Source of the DNA: Bacteroidota bacterium
GTDB lineage: Bacteria; Bacteroidota; Bacteroidia; B-17B0; Aurantibacillaceae
Direction: 5' to 3'
Assembly (NCBI GenBank): GCA_018267825.1
Contig: JAFDXR010000003.1
Span: 1 to 64,000 of the forward strand
DNA length: 64,000 nt
The position numbers were made by a program, and so were the translations under genes. Below are positions 43,591 through 56,562 of the stretch, in pieces; the stretch's first letter is position 1; every line of letters starts with the position of its first letter. The notes below the pieces were generated by a model. It was not told where the DNA came from. It made no database searches and saw only the letters and a program-made list of their open reading frames with translations.

Positions 43591-44643
43591 TTACTCAAAC
43601 ACAAAACCATTCGATATAATACCCGCCGTAAACGAAGTGACCAAAGAACCATTGGTCTTATAAATCATGATCTTTGATTTCTGCACGTAATCAATGGCGT
43701 CGCTGACATAAATATTGCCATCGGCAGGATTGATCCCCAGCCCATAGAATACAGAAGACCCCTGGGTAATTAAAGGAGCTGAAGGCAGCGAAGTATTCTG
43801 AACCGGCAACTGACAAACCCCGTTGTTGAGATAGTACAGTACATCCCTGTTTTTATTGGTACATAAGCGCCATGGCTTTTCTACAGACGAAAAAGGTAAA
43901 CTCAGTTCGATCTGTAAAGTGAGCGGATCGATACGTAACAGTTTAGGATTTATGCTCACTGTTTGATCACCGCCGGAAAGAATCCAGAGTTTATCGTTTT
44001 TATCAAACACCAGCGATGCAGCGCCTTTACCCACCAGAATACTATCGGTGATGGCATTTGTGGTGGCATTGATCACATAGGTATAGTTGGATTTTGTGTT
44101 GGTTACAAATACCTTGTTGTATATCATGGCCATCTGCTCCGTTGCGCCGGGACAGGGAATAGAACCGACAATGCTGTTTGCGGAAAGATCAACAACCTGG
44201 ATACTGTTAGCATACAGATCGCTCACATAGGCTTTATTGTAACTAATAGGCAGCAAATAACGCGGCGAGTTAAAACCGGTGATCGTAGCATTTTTTGCAA
44301 AATCAGACGCATTTACTACCACAATCTTACCTGAATGATTTACAACCAGGTAATAATTATCATTCCAGCGCAACATACTCTGGCATACATCGCCTAATGC
44401 TGCATTATTATTCTGCTGGGCATATATACCTGTATTCGCAGCATTGGTCCCCGGATCATATAGCGTGATTTCTGCATTGCTGTAGCCATAACCACCTTCA
44501 TCAACGACCCACACCTTACCTACTCCACTCAGGTCTACAAGGGCCTTTTCAGGTGTTACAGGCTTGTCTTTGACACAAGCCTGCAGCACGAAAACCAGCG
44601 TGGACAGAATAAAAACAAACTGCTTATATATTCTTTTTTTCAT
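43591..44643 (-). CDS. YncE-like/DUF5074 beta-propeller lipoprotein (BtuG-like)
   Basis: A 350-residue lipoprotein (signal LSTLVFVLQAC) with a seven-bladed beta-propeller pattern. Repeated units include NSIQVVDLSANSIVGSIPCP, YTYVINATTNAITDSILVGK and LLRIDPLTLQIELSLPF. It is the third gene after a cobalamin riboswitch, behind a BtuB-like receptor. In gut Bacteroides the surface propeller BtuG captures B12 for BtuB, so a BtuG-like role is a good inference. The start is the first ATG, 52 bp after the DUF4465 gene. Confidence 0.85.
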   Translation of the reverse strand: MKKRIYKQFVFILSTLVFVLQACVKDKPVTPEKALVDLSGVGKVWVVDEGGYGYSNAEITLYDPGTNAANTGIYAQQNNNAALGDVCQSMLRWNDNYYLVVNHSGKIVVVNASDFAKNATITGFNSPRYLLPISYNKAYVSDLYANSIQVVDLSANSIVGSIPCPGATEQMAMIYNKVFVTNTKSNYTYVINATTNAITDSILVGKGAASLVFDKNDKLWILSGGDQTVSINPKLLRIDPLTLQIELSLPFSSVEKPWRLCTNKNRDVLYYLNNGVCQLPVQNTSLPSAPLITQGSSVFYGLGINPADGNIYVSDAIDYVQKSKIMIYKTNGSLVTSFTAGIISNGFVFE

Positions 44644-44695
44644 GAACAGATGATCTTTGTAAGGTGCTTTTGAACAGAGATATTATAAAACCTAT

Positions 44696-45676
44696 TTATT
44701 GTTTTGTGAATTTCACTTTCTGTGCATATTTATCGGAAGCCAGTTCAAGGATATATATTCCCGGTGCCAGATCCTCAACACTTAATTGCAGGGTATTTAA
44801 TCCGGGATTCAGGGAAATAGCTTCGTGGCGGATTTCGGTGCCCACCATATTATGAATGCTCACAAGTGCCTGTGCACTTTCCTTACTCGTGAAACGCACA
44901 TTCAACAAATCAACAGCCGGGTTCGGGAACATGTTGTAATCGGCAAAAGCGCTATACTCTTCAACACCCACTGTGGACTGAAATGTAAGATCATCGATAG
45001 AAAAGAAAGCCGGTGTATTCATACCAAATGAGCCATTGTCGCTGGAACTTAAATGAAAGATCAGGCTATCGGCTGAATCAAGGCTGTCGCAGGAAACCCA
45101 TTGCCAGTTCTGAACAATGTAATCCTGAGAATTATTGCTGAAACGGTAGTCGGCCAGGTAAAACTCCGCACTGTCAGGCTGCATGACTCCTCCACGGAAA
45201 GCACGTACGGTCAGTTTGAACCAATCCGGATCATTACCGCTGGTGCCACCAAATTTTTTGGCAAAGGCATCCCCGTTTTTCATGGACTTGTAAGCGTAGG
45301 TTGTATTGGTTACATAAAAGCCTTTTACAGCCATGTATGGATTATTTAATTTGATAATAGCATCCTGCTGTGCCGTTACATATACCGAAGAACCATTATA
45401 GCCGGTTTTCGCACGGCAATTATAAAGGTGACTGAAATCCCCATTGGTGCTATCGGCCATGTTTGTATAGGCACTTCCGCCAGACCAATATCCTGAGCTG
45501 TAATCGTAGCGGAAAGTAGCCTGGGCATCCTGCCAGTCGTCGCCGTTTGTGTTCTGATAATAGCTTCCGGTGCTGAGTGTAAATGTTTCAAACGTTTCGG
45601 TGATCGTTTGGGACTGGGACTGGAGTGCACATGTAATACCGAGTACAAGAGAAAGTCTGGTAAGTGTTTTTTGCAT
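44696..45676 (-). CDS. DUF4465 protein with T9SS C-terminal sorting domain
   Basis: A 326-residue secreted protein with a signal peptide (GITCALQSQSQ), a DUF4465 beta-sandwich domain (residues 20-235; GYWSGGSAYTNMAD, YVTNTTYAYKSMKNGDAF, FFSIDDLTF) and a type A T9SS sorting domain at the C-terminus: MFPNPAVDLLNVRF, then GLNTLQLSVEDLAPGIYILE and AQKVKFTKQ. It should be secreted across the outer membrane by the T9SS and attached to the surface. It lies second in the B12-riboswitch operon, between btuB and the beta-propeller gene, so a cobalamin-binding or receptor-assisting role is likely but not shown. Confidence 0.86.
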   Translation of the reverse strand: MQKTLTRLSLVLGITCALQSQSQTITETFETFTLSTGSYYQNTNGDDWQDAQATFRYDYSSGYWSGGSAYTNMADSTNGDFSHLYNCRAKTGYNGSSVYVTAQQDAIIKLNNPYMAVKGFYVTNTTYAYKSMKNGDAFAKKFGGTSGNDPDWFKLTVRAFRGGVMQPDSAEFYLADYRFSNNSQDYIVQNWQWVSCDSLDSADSLIFHLSSSDNGSFGMNTPAFFSIDDLTFQSTVGVEEYSAFADYNMFPNPAVDLLNVRFTSKESAQALVSIHNMVGTEIRHEAISLNPGLNTLQLSVEDLAPGIYILELASDKYAQKVKFTKQ

Positions 45677-45682
45677 GATTTA

Positions 45683-47617
45683 TTATTTTTTTAGTTTATG
45701 ATACATGATTGAAAGCCCTATTTCAAAGTTACGCAATGGCATGGGCCTGTTTTCTACCACCTGGTAATTCGTATTGAACACATTATTCAGAGCGAAAAAA
45801 GTCTGCAGGCGTATGGTACTGAAGCTAAAACCATAAGACAGCCTGAGATTCCCGACAGAGTATGGATTGAGCCAGGAAGAATTATCAGTAGCCGTGAAAC
45901 GATACCCTGTATAGTTTTGTGTATACATCAATGCCATATCTTTCAGGGTAATCAGCAAGCCGCCCTGGATACTGTAACGTGGCGTATATATAAGCTGGCG
46001 GCCTTTCGAGTTGTCGTTTTCGCTGAGCGACTGTTCGTTTGTTGAGAGCACATACGCAGTGGACCCAAACCATTTAACCGAAAAATCAGAATCGCCATAC
46101 TTTGCGTAAAAATTCGTTTCTGTTCCTCTGCTGTGAACTTTTGTTATGTTGCGTGGACTCCACACATTATTTGCCTGCGGCAACCATATAATCCAGTTGC
46201 TTGTATAGCGATCAAAGAAAGTTCCTTCGGCATAAAGCTCCAGGTGTTTATACGTTTTATGAAAGACTATTCCTCCCTCGTATCCCAGGGCTTCTTCCGG
46301 TTTCAGGTCCGGATTTCCACCAGGGCTCCAGTAAAGATCATTTAACGTAGGCTGCCTGAATGATTTGGCTGCATTCACTTTGAGGGAAATACTTTTGCAT
46401 AACACGTAAGTCGTACCGATATTTCCTGTGAGTGGCACTTTATACTGTTGCGAAAACTCCTGGCGTATACTCAGGCTGGTCTGCAGTTTCTGATCGGAGG
46501 TCGACCATTTGTAAGACAGGAAAAATGCCAGTTTCTGATACCTCTTATCTCCTGCATAACTTTCAGTATTGGCGCGGTAAAGGGTGTAATTAGCGCCTGC
46601 CTGAAACACATGCCGGTGCAGGCGCCATGTATTTTCACTTTCTGCGATCACGGAAGACGAATTGCTTTTTGAATAAATGAATGCAAGGCTGTCGTTATAA
46701 TTCAATACATCGGAAAGGTAAGCTGCACGAATAACAGATGTGTAACGTTGCTTTATATACAGCCATTCGGCATTCAGTTTCAGGTTTCTATCCGTTTGCG
46801 ACTGCTTGCTTATTCCGGCAGTATAGGAGGGCAGATTGCGATATGTATCGTTATACCAGGCACGGATACTCAGCTTATGACGTTGTCCGGCGAGGAAACT
46901 CAACTCCTGCATCAGGCCTTTACATGTATAGTCGGCATGACTTATTCGTTTATTGGGTGATTCTTTATCGCTGGTATCCTTATAATTATAGTTATTCTCA
47001 GAGCTTATATAATACACCTTTGTTGACGACACAAAACGTTTGTAGCTGAGATGAATGGCGGTGTTCAGTTTGCGCGTATCAAAGCTGCCGAATGATGATG
47101 TCAGTTTGGTACTAATGCCTTTGTCGAACACAGGTTTATTATCCAGGTGCACCGTCCCGCTCATCGCTCCGCTCCCCCATAAGGCACTGGAACCGCCAAA
47201 TTCGAGAGAGATGTTATCAAAGAGAATGGAATTGATCAGGCTCAGATCGTTTTGTCCAAGCATATTGTTCTGAATATTAATACCGTTCCAGGTGACTGCC
47301 GTCTGATTGGCATTACCGCCACGAAAACTCATGGTTGCAATATTGCCCCCGCCATAGGATTTAATATGCATGGAAGATTGCGATGCTAACAGATCAGCCA
47401 GGGACGAAGACTGATACAGGGCCTGTGTGGCACTATCGAAACGCTGTACTTTTTTTCCGGCACCAAAAAGTTGTTCCCTGCCAGAGCTGACAGTAACCTC
47501 TTTCAGTTGATGAGATGCTGTATCGGACTGCGCCTGGAGGTTATGATGCACACACACACACACAAGCATAAGCCCAAAGGCTTTACGGAATGTGGATATG
47601 TAATAACGTCGCTGCAT
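45683..47617 (-). CDS. btuB: TonB-dependent cobalamin receptor, BtuB-like
   Basis: Outer-membrane receptor of about 644 residues. After the signal peptide (VHHNLQAQ) comes a TonB-box-like KEVTVSSGRE, a plug (DLLASQSSMHIKSYGGGNIA, MSFRGGNANQTAVTWNGI, LWGSGAMSGTVHLDN) and a 22-strand-type barrel ending IGLSIMYHKLKK. There is no carboxypeptidase-like N-terminal domain. The assignment to cobalamin rests on the B12 riboswitch directly upstream and on the BtuG-like gene downstream. ATG 47617 or 47653 are both possible. The signal peptide is encoded across a (TG)8 dinucleotide tract. Confidence 0.9.
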   Translation of the reverse strand: MQRRYYISTFRKAFGLMLVCVCVHHNLQAQSDTASHQLKEVTVSSGREQLFGAGKKVQRFDSATQALYQSSSLADLLASQSSMHIKSYGGGNIATMSFRGGNANQTAVTWNGINIQNNMLGQNDLSLINSILFDNISLEFGGSSALWGSGAMSGTVHLDNKPVFDKGISTKLTSSFGSFDTRKLNTAIHLSYKRFVSSTKVYYISSENNYNYKDTSDKESPNKRISHADYTCKGLMQELSFLAGQRHKLSIRAWYNDTYRNLPSYTAGISKQSQTDRNLKLNAEWLYIKQRYTSVIRAAYLSDVLNYNDSLAFIYSKSNSSSVIAESENTWRLHRHVFQAGANYTLYRANTESYAGDKRYQKLAFFLSYKWSTSDQKLQTSLSIRQEFSQQYKVPLTGNIGTTYVLCKSISLKVNAAKSFRQPTLNDLYWSPGGNPDLKPEEALGYEGGIVFHKTYKHLELYAEGTFFDRYTSNWIIWLPQANNVWSPRNITKVHSRGTETNFYAKYGDSDFSVKWFGSTAYVLSTNEQSLSENDNSKGRQLIYTPRYSIQGGLLITLKDMALMYTQNYTGYRFTATDNSSWLNPYSVGNLRLSYGFSFSTIRLQTFFALNNVFNTNYQVVENRPMPLRNFEIGLSIMYHKLKK

Positions 47618-47723
47618 AGTCTTGCTTTTGTGGAGCAGACGGGAAAACAGCATGCATACTAACAGGTAAAATATCTGTTAATTGCCGGCCTTTGCTTCCC
47701 CGAAGGCTACAACTATTACAACT

Positions 47724-50667: not shown

Positions 50668-51051
50668 CTAATCGCCTTCCGTTACAGCAATGTCTTTATT
50701 GAGGTGCTCCTTGTTCCGCACCGATACCGAGAGTCCGCCCTTAACCAGATATGGTGCGGCAATAGTATAATCGTAGCCCATGGCATAGAGGTAATAATTT
50801 CCTTTATAGAAATTATCGATCACATAATTTCCTTCGGAGTCGGATTTTACATAGGTATCATATTTTGTATAATCATCCCCGGGAAATTCGGTTGCATTGA
50901 ACTTGATATAGATATAAGCATTCGGGATTGGTAAAGAGTGGTGCAACACTCTGCCCTTAACAGAAGCTTTGCCTCCCATCTGGTTTTTACGGCAGGAACC
51001 GAAAGAAAAAATGATCAGGGTTGCGAGGGCAAAAAGAATTATCTTTTTCAT
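50668..51051 (-). CDS. Small lipoprotein with carboxypeptidase-regulatory-like fold
   Basis: A 127-residue lipoprotein (signal LIIFSFGSCRKN) with one transthyretin/CarboxypepD_reg-like beta domain. The pattern is SVKGRVLHHSLPIPNAYIYI, VKSDSEGNYVIDNF and KGNYYLYAMGYDY. It is the last gene of the TonB receptor-MbnP-MbnH group and starts 6 bp after the di-heme peroxidase stop. It may be a surface binding partner of the receptor; this is inference. Confidence 0.8.
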   Translation of the reverse strand: MKKIILFALATLIIFSFGSCRKNQMGGKASVKGRVLHHSLPIPNAYIYIKFNATEFPGDDYTKYDTYVKSDSEGNYVIDNFYKGNYYLYAMGYDYTIAAPYLVKGGLSVSVRNKEHLNKDIAVTEGD

Positions 51052-51057
51052 AGTTAC

Positions 51058-52119
51058 TTATTTATAATTTTCGGAATACCGGACATCCGTCAGGAATTTG
51101 GTATCGGTCAGTGTTTTTAAAAATGCGATGATATTCGTTTTATCCTGGCTGCTCAGAGCAATTCCCGAAGCAAGCTGAGGATCGAGTGTGGCACTGCTCA
51201 CGATGCCCGACACATAATGATCCAGGCATTGATCGAGCGTGGTGAAGCGCCCATCGTGCATATACGGTTTCGACTTTTCAATATTGCGCAGCGATGGTGT
51301 TTTAAATTTCCAGAGATCCGCAGGCAATTGTGTGATATGTGCACGCCCGCTATCATTAATAAACGTATTTACCGCTAAACCGTTGTTACGGAACTGATAA
51401 TCACTGAAAAGCGGCTCGACGTGGCAGCTTGCACATTTCTGCTGAAACAATGTATAACCTTGTTGCTCGGCTGCTGTAAAGCTTGCTTTGCCTGCACGTA
51501 CCTGGTCGTATTTGCTGTTGTATGAATACAGCGCTCCCATAAACTGAGCAAGGGCTTTGAGCATGCGTTGCGAGTTTACGGTTTCATCGCCGAAAGCATT
51601 TTTGAACAGAGTACGGTACTTACTGCTGTTGGATAATTTAAAAACGACATTGCTGATGGTTTCTCCCATCTCCACCGGGTTGGTAATTGGAGCCGTTGGT
51701 TGTACTTCAATGTTATTGATCCCGCCATCGTGCATGAAATAAGGATTCCAGTTTAGGTTCTGCAAGGCCGGTGCATTTCGCTTACCCAGGAGTCCGTTAA
51801 TGCCATGACTGAAATCGTGATCGGCCTGTGCAAATGCAGCAAACTGCTGATGACAGGAAGAGCATGAAACCGTATTATCGACCGAAAGCATGGGTTCATA
51901 AAAGAGCGCATGCCCCAGGTCAAAGCCTGCCGGGGTGAGCGGATTGTTTTCAAAATTATAAACCGGTGTCGGCCACCCATCAGGAATTACAGGCTGTATA
52001 TTGTCGAGATTAACAGTGGGTGTGATTTCCGGGTCCACCGAACATGAAAGCACTAATGCTGACAGAAACGTCATTCCAATTGCTTTCTTTATCTGGAGAG
52101 GAGTTATAAAGCGTTTCAT
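51058..52119 (-). CDS. Di-heme cytochrome c peroxidase/MauG family (MbnH-like)
   Basis: A 353-residue exported protein with a lipoprotein signal (LSALVLSCSV) and two CxxCH heme-binding motifs: SCSSCHQQF in the N-terminal half and KCASCHVEP in the C-terminal half. The CCP/MauG blocks LGKRNAPALQNLNWNPYFMH and KTPSLRNIEKSKPYMHDGRF are split between domains. Both classical peroxide removal and MauG/MbnH-type oxidation of a partner protein use this fold. The direct partner gene upstream encodes an MbnP-family protein, and the start codon shares a base with its stop (TGATG). MbnH-like activity on MbnP is therefore the favoured inference. Confidence 0.88.
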   Translation of the reverse strand: MKRFITPLQIKKAIGMTFLSALVLSCSVDPEITPTVNLDNIQPVIPDGWPTPVYNFENNPLTPAGFDLGHALFYEPMLSVDNTVSCSSCHQQFAAFAQADHDFSHGINGLLGKRNAPALQNLNWNPYFMHDGGINNIEVQPTAPITNPVEMGETISNVVFKLSNSSKYRTLFKNAFGDETVNSQRMLKALAQFMGALYSYNSKYDQVRAGKASFTAAEQQGYTLFQQKCASCHVEPLFSDYQFRNNGLAVNTFINDSGRAHITQLPADLWKFKTPSLRNIEKSKPYMHDGRFTTLDQCLDHYVSGIVSSATLDPQLASGIALSSQDKTNIIAFLKTLTDTKFLTDVRYSENYK

Positions 52120-52928
52120 CAGTTTACAACAGAAGTAATAGTGAACATATCGGCATAATTATCGGCTATATTCTTGGCGTTGGTATTGGAAGTTGTGACT
52201 CCATACACGGTACCAAAAGAAATGGTATTCGGTGTTTTGAACCATTCTGCCACATCGCAATTCATATTCACCTGGGGTTTATGTGTTTCGGTAACCTGAG
52301 CCGCATTGGGAAAAGGTAGCTGCACACTGCGCAACACGCTGAAAGCACCGGAAAAACCACCAAGATGGAATGTCAGCTTTTTATAATTGTCGCCCGATTG
52401 GGGTGAAGTCCCTTCGAGTTTAGCCATGATGTAGCCCGTGTTCCAACTCCAAAACATACCATTGGCAGGATCAAGTGCTCCTGTTTGTGCCCCGGAAGTA
52501 TTCCGGTTTTTATCGACACCGATCATAAATTCGATGGAAGAATAACTGGCCCTTGGGATGCCACTCACATGCAATATCAATGATGAGGGGTTGGATTGAT
52601 CCACCAAGTAATAACTCTCGGCCGGCGACCACGCATAACCACCGGAAGTAGTCAACCTGATATTGGTAAAATAGTATTTATAGGTATTCACGATGAATGT
52701 GTCGCTGTTGGCATTGGTGTATTTTTGTGTGCCGAGCACCAATGGTACGCCATTCACTACATTGCTCATGACTATATCCAGCGATCCGGTGGTATCGGGA
52801 CCAGGTGTAACAGCCGCAGGCATGGGCTCAGGGGCTGGCGCGTGATATTTTTTGCAGGATACCACTACAGCCAGCCCGCAAGCAAATATAAAAAGGTAGG
52901 TTTTCAAAAATTGTTTTTTCATCCTCAT
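52119..52928 (-). CDS. MbnP-family lipoprotein (putative copper-binding)
   Basis: A 269-residue lipoprotein (signal CGLAVVVSC, Cys25) with a Pro-rich linker then a beta-sandwich domain of the MbnP family. Family marks visible are GTQKYTNANSDTFIVNTYKY, YYFTNIRLT, YYLVDQSNPSSL, the IEFMIGVDKNRN strand and the aromatic ANGMFWSWNTGYIMAKLEG (Trp160, Trp162). In methanotrophs MbnP binds copper through kynurenine made from a tryptophan by MbnH. Here the gene lies between a TonB-dependent receptor and an MbnH-like di-heme protein and overlaps the latter by one base. Whether a tryptophan is modified here is not known. Confidence 0.85.
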   Translation of the reverse strand: MRMKKQFLKTYLFIFACGLAVVVSCKKYHAPAPEPMPAAVTPGPDTTGSLDIVMSNVVNGVPLVLGTQKYTNANSDTFIVNTYKYYFTNIRLTTSGGYAWSPAESYYLVDQSNPSSLILHVSGIPRASYSSIEFMIGVDKNRNTSGAQTGALDPANGMFWSWNTGYIMAKLEGTSPQSGDNYKKLTFHLGGFSGAFSVLRSVQLPFPNAAQVTETHKPQVNMNCDVAEWFKTPNTISFGTVYGVTTSNTNAKNIADNYADMFTITSVVN

Positions 52929-52992
52929 AAAAGTACATTTTTTTGAAACGTCTTTCCTGTTAAATATTAAGCTTCCATGGATTGCTAAAATC

Positions 52993-55449
52993 TCAGGACT
53001 TCTTCAGATTCAGAGGAATACTCAACTTAAAACTGAAGTTACGCCCCATATTATATATCCCCGACCGGCCGGTACCATTAACCGGGTAGTTATCGAAATA
53101 CTTGAGGCGGCTCATATTCGACTGGTAGGCTACATCGGCAAGATTAGTTCCAAAAATCCCCAGGGTAAAGAGGGTTCTTCCGTTTTTGTTTACGATATCG
53201 GTTCCCATACCCGCATCCAATAATGTATAACCCGGGGTTTTGGTTTCTGTATGATCTGCCAGCAGGGCACGATCCTGGGCCGCATAATATTGGAGCCCCA
53301 CTTTTACATATATATTGGCAAAGCAGGCCCGTTTTTTGGAAAACTCGGCGCGGAGTTCCGAATTTGTATGAAGCGGTGGAATAAACGGCAGGTACTTATT
53401 GCTATCGTTTATTACAGCACCATTTCCCCCAAGGTTGGTGGCATAAACAAGCGATACCGAATTTTCGAAATGCAGCCAATCGATCGGATGCGGATGTAAA
53501 TCGATGCGGGCTTCACCACCAAACAACTGTGCTTTTGTTTGCCTGAATTTAAACACCGGATAATGAATGCCATTCTGGATATAAATAGAGTCGCCGCCCT
53601 GAAGACTCTGCAATTTCTGATTGAATATATAATTATCGATTGTGTTATGAAAGGCCTCCAGGCTCAGCGACACATGTTTGCTGTCGAAAAAAATACCGGC
53701 ATCTTCCTGCAAACTGAATTCGGGTTTGAAGTTGGCATCTCCCAATTGTTCGAAACCGGTTCCCGGGTGAACACCCTTCGCCGATATTTCGGATATATTG
53801 GGTGCCCTGTAACCCCTGGCCACATTCACTTTCACAAGCAAGCGGTCGCTGATGTTATAGGTAAGTCCTATGCTTCCTGAAAATCCCGAAAACACATGAC
53901 TATACCGGTCGAAAGCCCTGGTGGCCCCTGTAGTGTCTGTTACTTTCATATCGAAACCGGTAATGGCATTTGTACCGAGGTACATGGCCTCGTTTTTAAA
54001 CGAACGTGTATCGTAGCGTGCGCCGGCAGCAATATCCCATTTACCCAGGTTTTTCCGGACATATACAAAAGGGGCGAAATCAAGCAATGTATAATCGGGA
54101 ATAACAAACTCTGTAGCCTTGTCGGTGGAGTTTACCTGGTACATACCGTTGAAACCCACGGTTCCCTCCCACCCGTTTTTTTCGGGCAGATAATATTTGA
54201 GATCGTAGCTGCCTGTTTTGAGATTGAGAAAAAGCCCCGCCACATCGGGTACCTGGGGATGTGCATATTCGCGGCGGATACTTTGCTGATAGCCGAGATT
54301 GAGCGCCAGTTTGCTTTTCCCGAGAATAAAACTGCTATTGGAAAACAAACGGTAATGTTGCACGCGCTGATGAATGGCATTGATGTCATAGGACTTTAGT
54401 TCCGAAGCGCTGACGATCGGCCTGAAGGTATCGGCCTCCGTAATTTGCTTTGTAAACAGGCGACTGCTGGAATCGCGGCTGCCATCAGGGATTTCCTGCA
54501 TATTGTCGTACATACTGAAATTAACATGTGAATATCCCCACTTACGATTAAACCCCAAATAAGCATTCACATCGCGTTCATTAAACCCGGTGTTGTACAC
54601 ACGGCCGTCGTATTTGTTACGATAATTGGTAGCTGCTTTGCCCGAAGCACGCAGGCCCCATACAAAGCCATTGTCGTTGCCGGCATAAGCTGCAGAGGCT
54701 GCATACAACCCGTTATTGGTCTGATAATTGGCCTGTGCCTGTCCTTCGATATGCCCTTCCGGGGCAGTATGGGCAGGCAGCAGGTTAATAACACCCGCCA
54801 GGGCATCCGAGCCATAGATCAGGCTGGCCGGGCCTTTTATTACTTCGATCCGGTCAACGAGAAACTGATCGATTTCGATGCCGTGCTCATCGCCCCATTG
54901 TTGTCCCTCCTGGCGCACACCGTCAAAAAGCGTGAGAATACGGTTATAGCCGAGCCCGCGGATATAGGGTTTCGACACATTGGGCCCTGTATTCAGTGCA
55001 TTGACACCCGGAACTTTCACGAGGGCATCAATAGCATTGGTGGCTGTATTTTCATTCAGGTATTTCAGATCAATGGAAGTCATCGGAACCGGGTTCCGCT
55101 TGATCTCAGTGGCTTTGGAAACACCCGTTACAATAACCTCATTGGATTCTACCGCGGATTCCTCCATTTCGATAAGGAGCTGTGTGGTCTGTGACAGGTC
55201 GATAGTTTTTACAACTGTTTGATAACCCAGCAGACGCACCTGGACCAGAGTTTTCATGGCTGGCATATTGCTCAGCTGAAAATGCCCGTCGCTGCCGGAG
55301 CTCGTGCCGTTTTTAAGATCCGGAAAATAGATTGTGGCACCGGGCAATGCTTCGCCTGTAAGTTTATTTTTAACTGTGCCTGTGAGCTTCACTTGTGCTC
55401 TTAATGTGCAGGCAGAACACACTAACATAACATATATAAAATATTTCAT
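52993..55449 (-). CDS. TonB-dependent receptor (putative metal/copper uptake)
   Basis: An 818-residue outer-membrane receptor. The signal peptide CSACTLRAQ is followed by a carboxypeptidase-regulatory-like domain (TGTVKNKLTGEALPGATIYF), a plug with NPVPMTSIDLKYLNENTATN, KPYIRGLGYNRILTLFDGVR and IKGPASLIYGSDALAGVINL, and a barrel ending FSFKLSIPLNLKKS. The plug segment QQWGDEHGIEIDQF (near the metal-receptor type DEHG-IDQF motif) favours a metal-related ligand. The start is ATG 55449; the frame is open further, but upstream lacks a signal. First gene of the receptor-MbnP-MbnH-lipoprotein group. Confidence 0.88.
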   Translation of the reverse strand: MKYFIYVMLVCSACTLRAQVKLTGTVKNKLTGEALPGATIYFPDLKNGTSSGSDGHFQLSNMPAMKTLVQVRLLGYQTVVKTIDLSQTTQLLIEMEESAVESNEVIVTGVSKATEIKRNPVPMTSIDLKYLNENTATNAIDALVKVPGVNALNTGPNVSKPYIRGLGYNRILTLFDGVRQEGQQWGDEHGIEIDQFLVDRIEVIKGPASLIYGSDALAGVINLLPAHTAPEGHIEGQAQANYQTNNGLYAASAAYAGNDNGFVWGLRASGKAATNYRNKYDGRVYNTGFNERDVNAYLGFNRKWGYSHVNFSMYDNMQEIPDGSRDSSSRLFTKQITEADTFRPIVSASELKSYDINAIHQRVQHYRLFSNSSFILGKSKLALNLGYQQSIRREYAHPQVPDVAGLFLNLKTGSYDLKYYLPEKNGWEGTVGFNGMYQVNSTDKATEFVIPDYTLLDFAPFVYVRKNLGKWDIAAGARYDTRSFKNEAMYLGTNAITGFDMKVTDTTGATRAFDRYSHVFSGFSGSIGLTYNISDRLLVKVNVARGYRAPNISEISAKGVHPGTGFEQLGDANFKPEFSLQEDAGIFFDSKHVSLSLEAFHNTIDNYIFNQKLQSLQGGDSIYIQNGIHYPVFKFRQTKAQLFGGEARIDLHPHPIDWLHFENSVSLVYATNLGGNGAVINDSNKYLPFIPPLHTNSELRAEFSKKRACFANIYVKVGLQYYAAQDRALLADHTETKTPGYTLLDAGMGTDIVNKNGRTLFTLGIFGTNLADVAYQSNMSRLKYFDNYPVNGTGRSGIYNMGRNFSFKLSIPLNLKKS

Positions 55450-55602
55450 CTTCGTTTTCTTGATGGCATGGTTGTAAAGCAAATCACCGGAAAAAGATAT
55501 TTCCGGGAATACACGATTCTTTACCGGACAACTAAATGCCTTTGGTTTTACATTTCGGAAATTGATGCGTTTTGGTTTATTCAACCCAAAACACCTGTAA
55601 AA

Positions 55603-55947
55603 TCAGGAAACGGGAGGGGCCCTGGCGGGCAGAGAAACGATATGAATAAGAAAACAATCCGCTGTGTATTTTGCAAACCAGACAGGTAACGGATTGACGA
55701 TCTTTTTTTCGATTGCCGAAATTTTCGGGCAATCGTACAGGGTTGTGTGCGTTTTAAATATTTCGCAGTGAACGTGTTCTTTTTCGTAGTGAGTCCCCAG
55801 GCTTTTATGAAGCATCTCACACTGCAGGTCATCAGTATCTTTATGATCGGCAAAAGTTTCATGCAACCATTCACCCGGAAAAAGAATCCAGGAGAACACC
55901 ACGAGCAGACATGCGGATGTATATTTTATAAATCGCTGCTTATACAC
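55603..55947 (-). CDS. Small exported His/Cys-rich protein, paralogue of 56221
   Basis: A 114-residue protein with one hydrophobic segment (SACLLVVFSWILF) and a following WLHETFADH. The middle region is rich in potential metal ligands (CEMLHKSLGTHYEKEHVHCE), and the C-terminus ends SLPARAPPVS. Layout and end motif match the 113-residue protein at 56221. Small His-rich proteins with such an (R)APP or (R)GPP end are found near metal-related receptor genes in Bacteroidota. Lies just upstream of the TonB receptor. Function not established. Confidence 0.65.
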   Translation of the reverse strand: MYKQRFIKYTSACLLVVFSWILFPGEWLHETFADHKDTDDLQCEMLHKSLGTHYEKEHVHCEIFKTHTTLYDCPKISAIEKKIVNPLPVWFAKYTADCFLIHIVSLPARAPPVS

Positions 55948-55962
55948 GATCGTTCAGATGAT

Positions 55963-56172
55963 TTATTTTACCGGGTCATAACCGCTTCCACCCCAGGGAT
56001 GGCAACGACAGATGCGTTTAAATCCCATCCATGAGCCTTTGAGCGCGCCATACTTATTCACTGCATCCATGGCATATTGCGAGCAGGAAGGCGTGTAACG
56101 GCAGGCAGGCATCAGGTATGGTGAAATAGCATACTGATAGAATTTAATAAAGGCCAGTGCTATGAATTTCAA
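55963..56172 (-). CDS. yidD: Membrane protein insertion efficiency factor YidD
   Basis: A 69-residue YidD with the diagnostic [15 protein letters not shown] and [14 protein letters not shown]. The family helps Sec/YidC-dependent insertion of membrane proteins and sits in the cytoplasm at the membrane. Normal length. Usually near rnpA/yidC; here it is detached and placed between the two small His-rich paralogues. Confidence 0.95.
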
Positions 56173-56220
56173 GGTTTGGTGTTTTTAAAAAAGATGAGAC
56201 ATATGTTTACGCGCAGAAAA

Positions 56221-56562
56221 CTATGTCAATGGCGGGCCGCGGAGCCTGTCGGCTGCAGTCCTTTGTTTCAGGAGTATGGAGTCAGGGTTGCTGAACGACA
56301 AATCCCTGGCGGAAGGAAGTGGCAGAAAATTTAAAATGAAATGGAATACAGTGTAATGAACCGGCACATCAAACGTACTATAATTGCAATCTTTTGTATC
56401 AGCATCCTCATTCAGGGTTTTGCCACTATTACTTTTTTGAATAACATGATGGATATGCCCGGTAAGTTCATGAATATAAGACCGGGGAATGACGGCAAAC
56501 ACCAGAACAACCAGTAGTAAGCATGCTATACACTTATGTAATCTATTTTTCAAGTCTATCAA
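56221..56562 (-). CDS. Small exported His-rich protein, paralogue of 55603
   Basis: A 113-residue protein with a hydrophobic segment CIACLLLVVLVFAVIP then SYIHELTGHIHHVIQK, a His-rich stretch likely to face the periplasm. It contains D-K-D-C-N in the middle, and ends ADRLRGPPLT. The sequence pattern (basic start, helix, W/Y-x-H-E, His cluster, C-terminal RGPP/RAPP) parallels the protein at 55603, indicating duplication. Starts 18 bp after the GlcD-like stop. Function unknown; a metal-linked role is inference. Confidence 0.65.
   Translation of the reverse strand: MIDLKNRLHKCIACLLLVVLVFAVIPRSYIHELTGHIHHVIQKSNSGKTLNEDADTKDCNYSTFDVPVHYTVFHFILNFLPLPSARDLSFSNPDSILLKQRTAADRLRGPPLT

Follow-up and report, generated by a model that had tools for sequence, protein, structure and literature searches.

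A TonB receptor-MbnP-MbnH locus of a Bacteroidota bacterium and its candidate metal-sensing arrest peptides

Outer-membrane copper uptake is poorly understood beyond a few Proteobacteria. One of the closest described systems is the CruR-CrtA(BfrG)-CrpH operon of Bordetella pertussis, which encodes a DUF2946 upstream open reading frame (uORF), a TonB copper transporter and a PepSY_TM protein. Bordetella CruR comprises an export signal, a CXXC motif, 45 residues and a RAPP motif, is followed by a 162-nt gap and the TonB copper transporter, and shuts its operon off in copper (PMC9426467). In PMC12992588, CruR arrest was demonstrated in vitro, and RAPP and RGPP, motifs that proteomes otherwise strongly avoid, were found to cause ribosome arrest. 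Here we analyzed a 64,000-nt stretch of a Bacteroidota bacterium (contig JAFDXR010000003.1, positions 1 to 64,000; hereafter the window), in which a TonB-dependent receptor, an MbnP-family lipoprotein, a di-heme MbnH-like enzyme and a small lipoprotein (50668-55449) are preceded by two small open reading frames (ORFs), smB and smA, predicted from their sequences to be arrest-peptide uORFs resembling CruR. We consider it reasonably probable that these genes form an operon for handling copper in the cell envelope, controlled by metal through nascent chains. The findings suggest that copper-related uptake in this bacterium is switched in a way known chiefly from Proteobacteria; among the signs of metal regulation at the locus, the CruR-like small ORFs are the strongest.

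The small ORFs also resemble the CutF-like proteins, which are described in PMC9973294 as exported proteins of <150 aa with a metal motif, a C-terminal PP and a gene downstream. As presented there, this set already contains many Bacteroidota proteins, and CutF switches in the direction opposite to CruR; the text examined does not describe CutF-like proteins for Bacteroidota MbnP operons. PMC12992588 reports RAPP/RGPP ORFs before TonB receptors in all Gram-negatives, yet its survey found those before copper-related genes to be missing from Bacteroidota; unlike in that survey, RAPP/RGPP ORFs here lead a receptor-MbnP-MbnH operon. As MbnP/MbnH were known beyond methanobactin operons before (PMC3621798, PMC9426467), the pair alone is not new in kind. 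Rather, the locus joins a kynurenine-type copper site, predicted from sequence, to a probable stalling-peptide switch. In the literature examined, we found no link between such small ORFs and MbnP/MbnH in Bacteroidota, no tandem RGPP-yidD-RAPP arrangement and no account of the operon range of the HPP family described below.

Small ORFs ahead of the receptor

Between the receptor and a flavin adenine dinucleotide-linked oxidase lie smB, yidD and smA, all on the minus strand (55603-56562), a segment directly upstream of the four genes that the original prediction overlooked. smB (56221..56562) is 113 aa long when read from TTG, with a second in-frame TTG at 56553; it has a His-rich N-terminal part and a single downstream Cys (CNYS), located 45 residues ahead of RGPP, and ends in LRGPPLT. 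smA (55603..55947), 114 aa from GTG, carries CEIF, 44 residues and then RAPP, ending in LPARAPPVS. Both begin with a hydrophobic N-terminus and look exported. The gene between them (55963..56172) encodes YidD, a membrane protein insertion efficiency factor of 69 aa (PF01809, 1e-31). A 153-nt leader (55450..55602) separates the smA stop from the receptor ATG, and when its folding was compared with that of shuffled sequences, region 55420-55640 was found to be more structured (z -3.1). This layout is like that of CruR in having an exported-looking small ORF, a Cys ~45 residues before RAPP/RGPP, a long gap (153 nt vs 162) and a TonB receptor next, and unlike it in that a tandem pair of small ORFs occurs together with yidD and that MbnP and MbnH lie downstream.

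R[AG]PP occurs anywhere in just 5 of 1859 called genes (from 103 loci), two of which are smA and smB. Of 60 relatives, 38 had a match (E of 0.1 or lower) to a small-ORF profile built from three sequences. In all 21 members examined, including smA, smB and an ORF of locus L070, a Cys lies 43-46 residues before RxPP and the stop follows 2-4 residues after it; shuffling the Cys positions gave a mean of 2.5 against the 21 observed, a test that ignores shared ancestry and is indicative only. A TonB receptor follows nearly all 21 ORFs. In L070, which belongs to another family, a RAPP ORF with a true CXXC is followed by a receptor, MbnP, MbnH, a barrel protein and a lipoprotein; several relatives also carry the true CXXC, where smA has CEIF and smB CNYS. 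L260 groups a lipoprotein, a RAPP ORF and a receptor, with an MbnP match on the same contig, and a cassette of smB-type ORF, yidD and receptor recurs in seven other genomes (L261, L262, L264, L265, L269, L270 and L272).

Neither small ORF belongs to a Pfam family, and conservation in their alignment was too slight for a pattern search of related loci. An Rfam search over 49-58 kb returned no match, and base composition indicated no clear C-rich Rho-type bubble across the smA-receptor gap; C exceeds G around 56350-56130. The Bacteroidota promoter pattern matched 4 times in the window vs 3.1 expected, with no match before the operon, and we therefore claim no promoter. As a separate observation, a small His/Cys-rich ORF ending in QPPKIS (L083:16359-16757) precedes a 719-aa gene; it has a faint DUF2946 match (E 0.083) and may be a further PP-ending member.

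The MbnP site and the four-gene set

The original prediction described a TonB receptor, an MbnP, a di-heme protein and a small lipoprotein on one strand, and this observation is real: all four ORFs lie on the minus strand at the positions it gave. The receptor (52993..55449), which has an N-terminal CarboxypepD_reg-like domain, matches the Pfam profiles Plug (6.6e-23), beta-barrel (5.7e-32) and CarbopepD_reg_2 (5.6e-19). It is followed by the 269-aa MbnP-family lipoprotein (52119..52928, lipobox VVSC) and a 353-aa di-heme lipoprotein of the MbnH/MauG superfamily (51058..52119), the A at 52119 being common to the MbnP stop and the MbnH start, as the proposed TGATG overlap has it. The fourth ORF, a small lipoprotein (50668..51051), is also present, but the CarboxypepD_reg resemblance ascribed to it is weak, scoring 20.9 bits, under the cut-off of 32.3.

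The 269-residue protein exceeds the cut-off of the MbnP profile PF20243 (179.9 bits; cut-off, 27; E 6.6e-53). A Protein Data Bank (PDB) search with this single sequence gave no match; a profile was required, and it reached Methylosinus trichosporium MbnP (7l6g, E 2.6e-4) with GM.W.W and the His aligned. The AlphaFold (AF2) model has a pLDDT (predicted local distance difference test) of 91 and the MbnP fold: in a Foldseek search against the PDB it matched 7l6g (E 3e-8, probability 1.00, template modelling score 0.46-0.53) and no other structure significantly.

The two tryptophans singled out earlier, W160 and W162, form a WxW motif (M158-F-W160-S-W162; codons at 52443..52457, minus strand). In alignments with M. 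trichosporium MbnP, W160 falls on the leading Trp of the WxW and M158 on the Met two residues earlier, and H188 (codon at 52365..52367, minus strand) is a conserved candidate copper-ligand His. Among 52 aligned Bacteroidota MbnPs, W160, G137 and G173 are invariant, and M158, W162, E172 and H188 are conserved in at least 90%; all five site residues (MWWEH) are present in 80 of 95 MbnH-linked MbnPs. Absence of an adjacent MbnH does not imply loss of the site, since 10 of 13 such MbnPs retain all five residues. In a 2021 PNAS study on MbnP, MbnH reportedly turns the first Trp of WxW into kynurenine, with copper held near His and Met, an arrangement that fits the conserved residues of the window MbnP. 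For CorA and MopE, the link between kynurenine and copper was directly shown (PMC3912023).

The locus thus shares with M. trichosporium MbnP/MbnH (7l6g, 6e1c) and with MopE/CorA and their di-heme partners the order of the pair, the WxW, the Met and His of the site, the fold and the two CxxCH motifs. Unlike M. trichosporium MbnP/MbnH, it is linked to CruR-like ORFs, misses the NCBIfam equivalog cut-offs and has no methanobactin gene, in agreement with the original prediction: the MbnB family (PF05114) had no match anywhere in the genome. It further differs from 7l6g in that the window MbnP has two Cys only, one of which is that of the lipobox, and therefore does not have the four-Cys motif named in that entry.

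Proposed mechanism and rival readings

In the mechanism we propose, the operon would run smB - yidD - smA - TonB receptor - MbnP - MbnH - lipoprotein. The receptor would carry a metal or metal complex over the outer membrane, and MbnP would be an outer-membrane lipoprotein holding Cu(I) through H188, M158 and kynurenine-160, the last produced from W160 by MbnH. smA and smB would act as nascent-chain sensors: during synthesis, each peptide would thread into the export channel until its Cys/His motif emerges and meets metal outside the inner membrane, while the ribosome is held at RGPP or RAPP near the C-terminus. Metal binding would then alter the stall and thereby govern transcription or translation of the genes that follow. 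By analogy with CruR, we assume the operon to be on under copper scarcity and off under copper excess, but the direction could be the opposite, as in CutF. Two small ORFs ahead of one operon may provide two inputs.

Several findings weigh against this mechanism. The di-heme protein and MbnP both fall short of their NCBIfam equivalogs, MbnP scoring 35.9 bits on TIGR04052 (cut-off 140) and the enzyme 213.7 bits on TIGR04039 (cut-off 362.85). Neither small ORF matches the DUF2946 profile (PF11162), and both need non-ATG starts. smA has CEIF and not CXXC, and smB has a single Cys together with its His-rich part, so that another metal, such as zinc or nickel, is possible. The best family scores of the receptor are to haem receptors, all far below cut-off.

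Were the di-heme protein a bacterial cytochrome c peroxidase (bCcP) of the ordinary kind that detoxifies peroxide, and MbnP an unrelated surface lipoprotein, the shared superfamily (CCP_MauG, 3.5e-49) and the missed TIGR04039 cut-off would be accounted for, as would the PDB search, in which several bCcPs score close behind the best match, 6e1c. We take 6e1c, a di-heme enzyme, to be M. trichosporium MbnH. However, in a tree three bCcPs form a 100/100 clade apart from the MbnP-linked enzymes, although long branches blur the placing of 6e1c; moreover, W160 is invariant in MbnP, MbnH adjoins it in 95 of 108 cases and the fold matches MbnP only, rendering an ordinary peroxidase highly improbable. 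The original assignment of an MbnH-like partner rather than an ordinary CcpA, with its two CxxCH motifs, is upheld; TIGR04039 is the best curated NCBIfam match of the enzyme, although its cut-off is not reached.

The small ORFs, for their part, could be stable periplasmic metal chaperones, without any regulatory function of the terminal PP motifs, as their exported appearance and Cys/His motifs would allow. Yet it is the spacing from motif to PP and the stop right after PP that are fixed, and not the intervening sequence; the ORF usually lies directly upstream with a structured gap behind it, and PMC12992588 presents RAPP/RGPP as avoided and ribosome-arresting, which together make chaperones a rather improbable explanation. 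A less remote reading, though still an unlikely one, retains the MbnP/MbnH copper site and has the small ORFs serve only the receptor, sensing another metal or the export machinery, with the receptor importing iron, haem or zinc and standing beside MbnP incidentally. smA/smB-type ORFs do precede receptors without MbnP in most relatives, yidD sits between smB and smA and is tied to smB-type ORFs in the seven other genomes, and the missing second Cys of smA and the haem-receptor scores, far below cut-off as they are, point the same way. So do the CutF-like proteins with His-only motifs, some of which adjoin nickel/cobalt genes (PMC9973294). On the other hand, the RAPP ORF of L070 carries a true CXXC and leads a receptor-MbnP-MbnH set, and L260 brings lipoprotein, RAPP ORF and receptor together on a contig with an MbnP match, both of which speak against this reading.

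MbnP neighborhoods and the CxGKC-HPP family

MbnP was found in 52 of 60 relatives and in 78 of 296 Bacteroidota genomes. We inspected the neighbors of 108 MbnPs; as these loci were picked by MbnP score, the fractions describe the sample and not the phylum. MbnH adjoined 95, and nearby lay a small PP-ending ORF in 48 cases, a beta-barrel-like protein in 40, a lipoprotein in 17, a TonB receptor in 16, a YHYH protein in 13, a metal sensor in 8 and SCO1 in 5. An adjacent receptor as a rule for MbnP was thereby ruled out. All four genes, in the order receptor-MbnP-MbnH-lipoprotein, occur in 2 of ~102 loci, the window and L070, and in the latter the barrel gene separates MbnH from the lipoprotein. 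The gene order implied to be conserved is therefore conserved more weakly than suggested: the MbnP-MbnH pair is common, but the four-gene order is rare.

The genome holds three MbnPs, two of which had also gone unnoticed. One belongs to a second MbnP/MbnH operon (L005; G000:C32, L005:6079-11035) with an extracytoplasmic function (ECF) sigma factor, an anti-sigma-like protein, a Metal_resist sensor, MbnH and a YHYH protein sorted by the type IX secretion system (T9SS); much the same gene set recurs in about eight loci. The other (L004:7524-10004) has an intact site and no adjacent MbnH; a small Cys protein precedes it, and after it comes a beta-barrel-like protein carrying a CDICG motif, one of a family of 39 with no or weak Pfam match.

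That small Cys protein is a member of a different ORF family, of ~128 aa, that often occupies position -1 of MbnP. Its members, which we term CxGKC-HPP, have three invariant Cys (C, then CxGKC), followed after 66.8 residues (standard deviation 2.1) by PP, 1-9 residues and the stop; the stretch ahead of the Cys motif is more variable (standard deviation 6.2). The family matches nothing in Pfam or NCBIfam and is present in 101 of 247 Bacteroidota genomes. It accompanies about two dozen of 39 named MbnP loci, including those of Taibaiella soli and Hymenobacter piscis, a set that overlaps the first in part in species. At 40 loci, mostly away from MbnP, a TonB receptor usually comes next, followed by PepSY_TM (8 of 17 scanned genes), SCO1, YtkA or a beta-barrel-like protein; receptor plus PepSY_TM is the arrangement of cruR-crtA-crpH (PMC12914433, PMC13038864). 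Copper-associated genes near MbnP loci or CxGKC-HPP ORFs include SCO1, the Metal_resist sensor with ECF sigma factor, PepSY_TM and YtkA. The gaps after CxGKC-HPP ORFs show more structure than control gaps do (mean z -2.34 vs -1.13, p 7e-4). HPP was not among the motifs searched in the survey of PMC12992588.

These observations lead us to a broader and more tentative proposal, which we hold to be nearly as apt to prove right as wrong: that Bacteroidota control envelope copper traffic by two families of metal-sensing arrest peptides, RAPP/RGPP, which precedes TonB receptors and is used here in tandem to gate the receptor-MbnP-MbnH operon, and the unannotated CxGKC-67-HPP family, which is present in ~40% of the phylum's genomes and heads MbnP and receptor-PepSY_TM operons. 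If true, this would add HPP to the known arrest signals and place MbnP/MbnH in a widespread copper-starvation regulon. CxGKC-HPP also offers a short, testable motif for finding copper-responsive operons across the phylum.

Elsewhere in the window, at 43591-47653, a further TonB receptor, then a T9SS-sorted protein and a DUF5074 protein are encoded in succession and possibly form a separate uptake locus.

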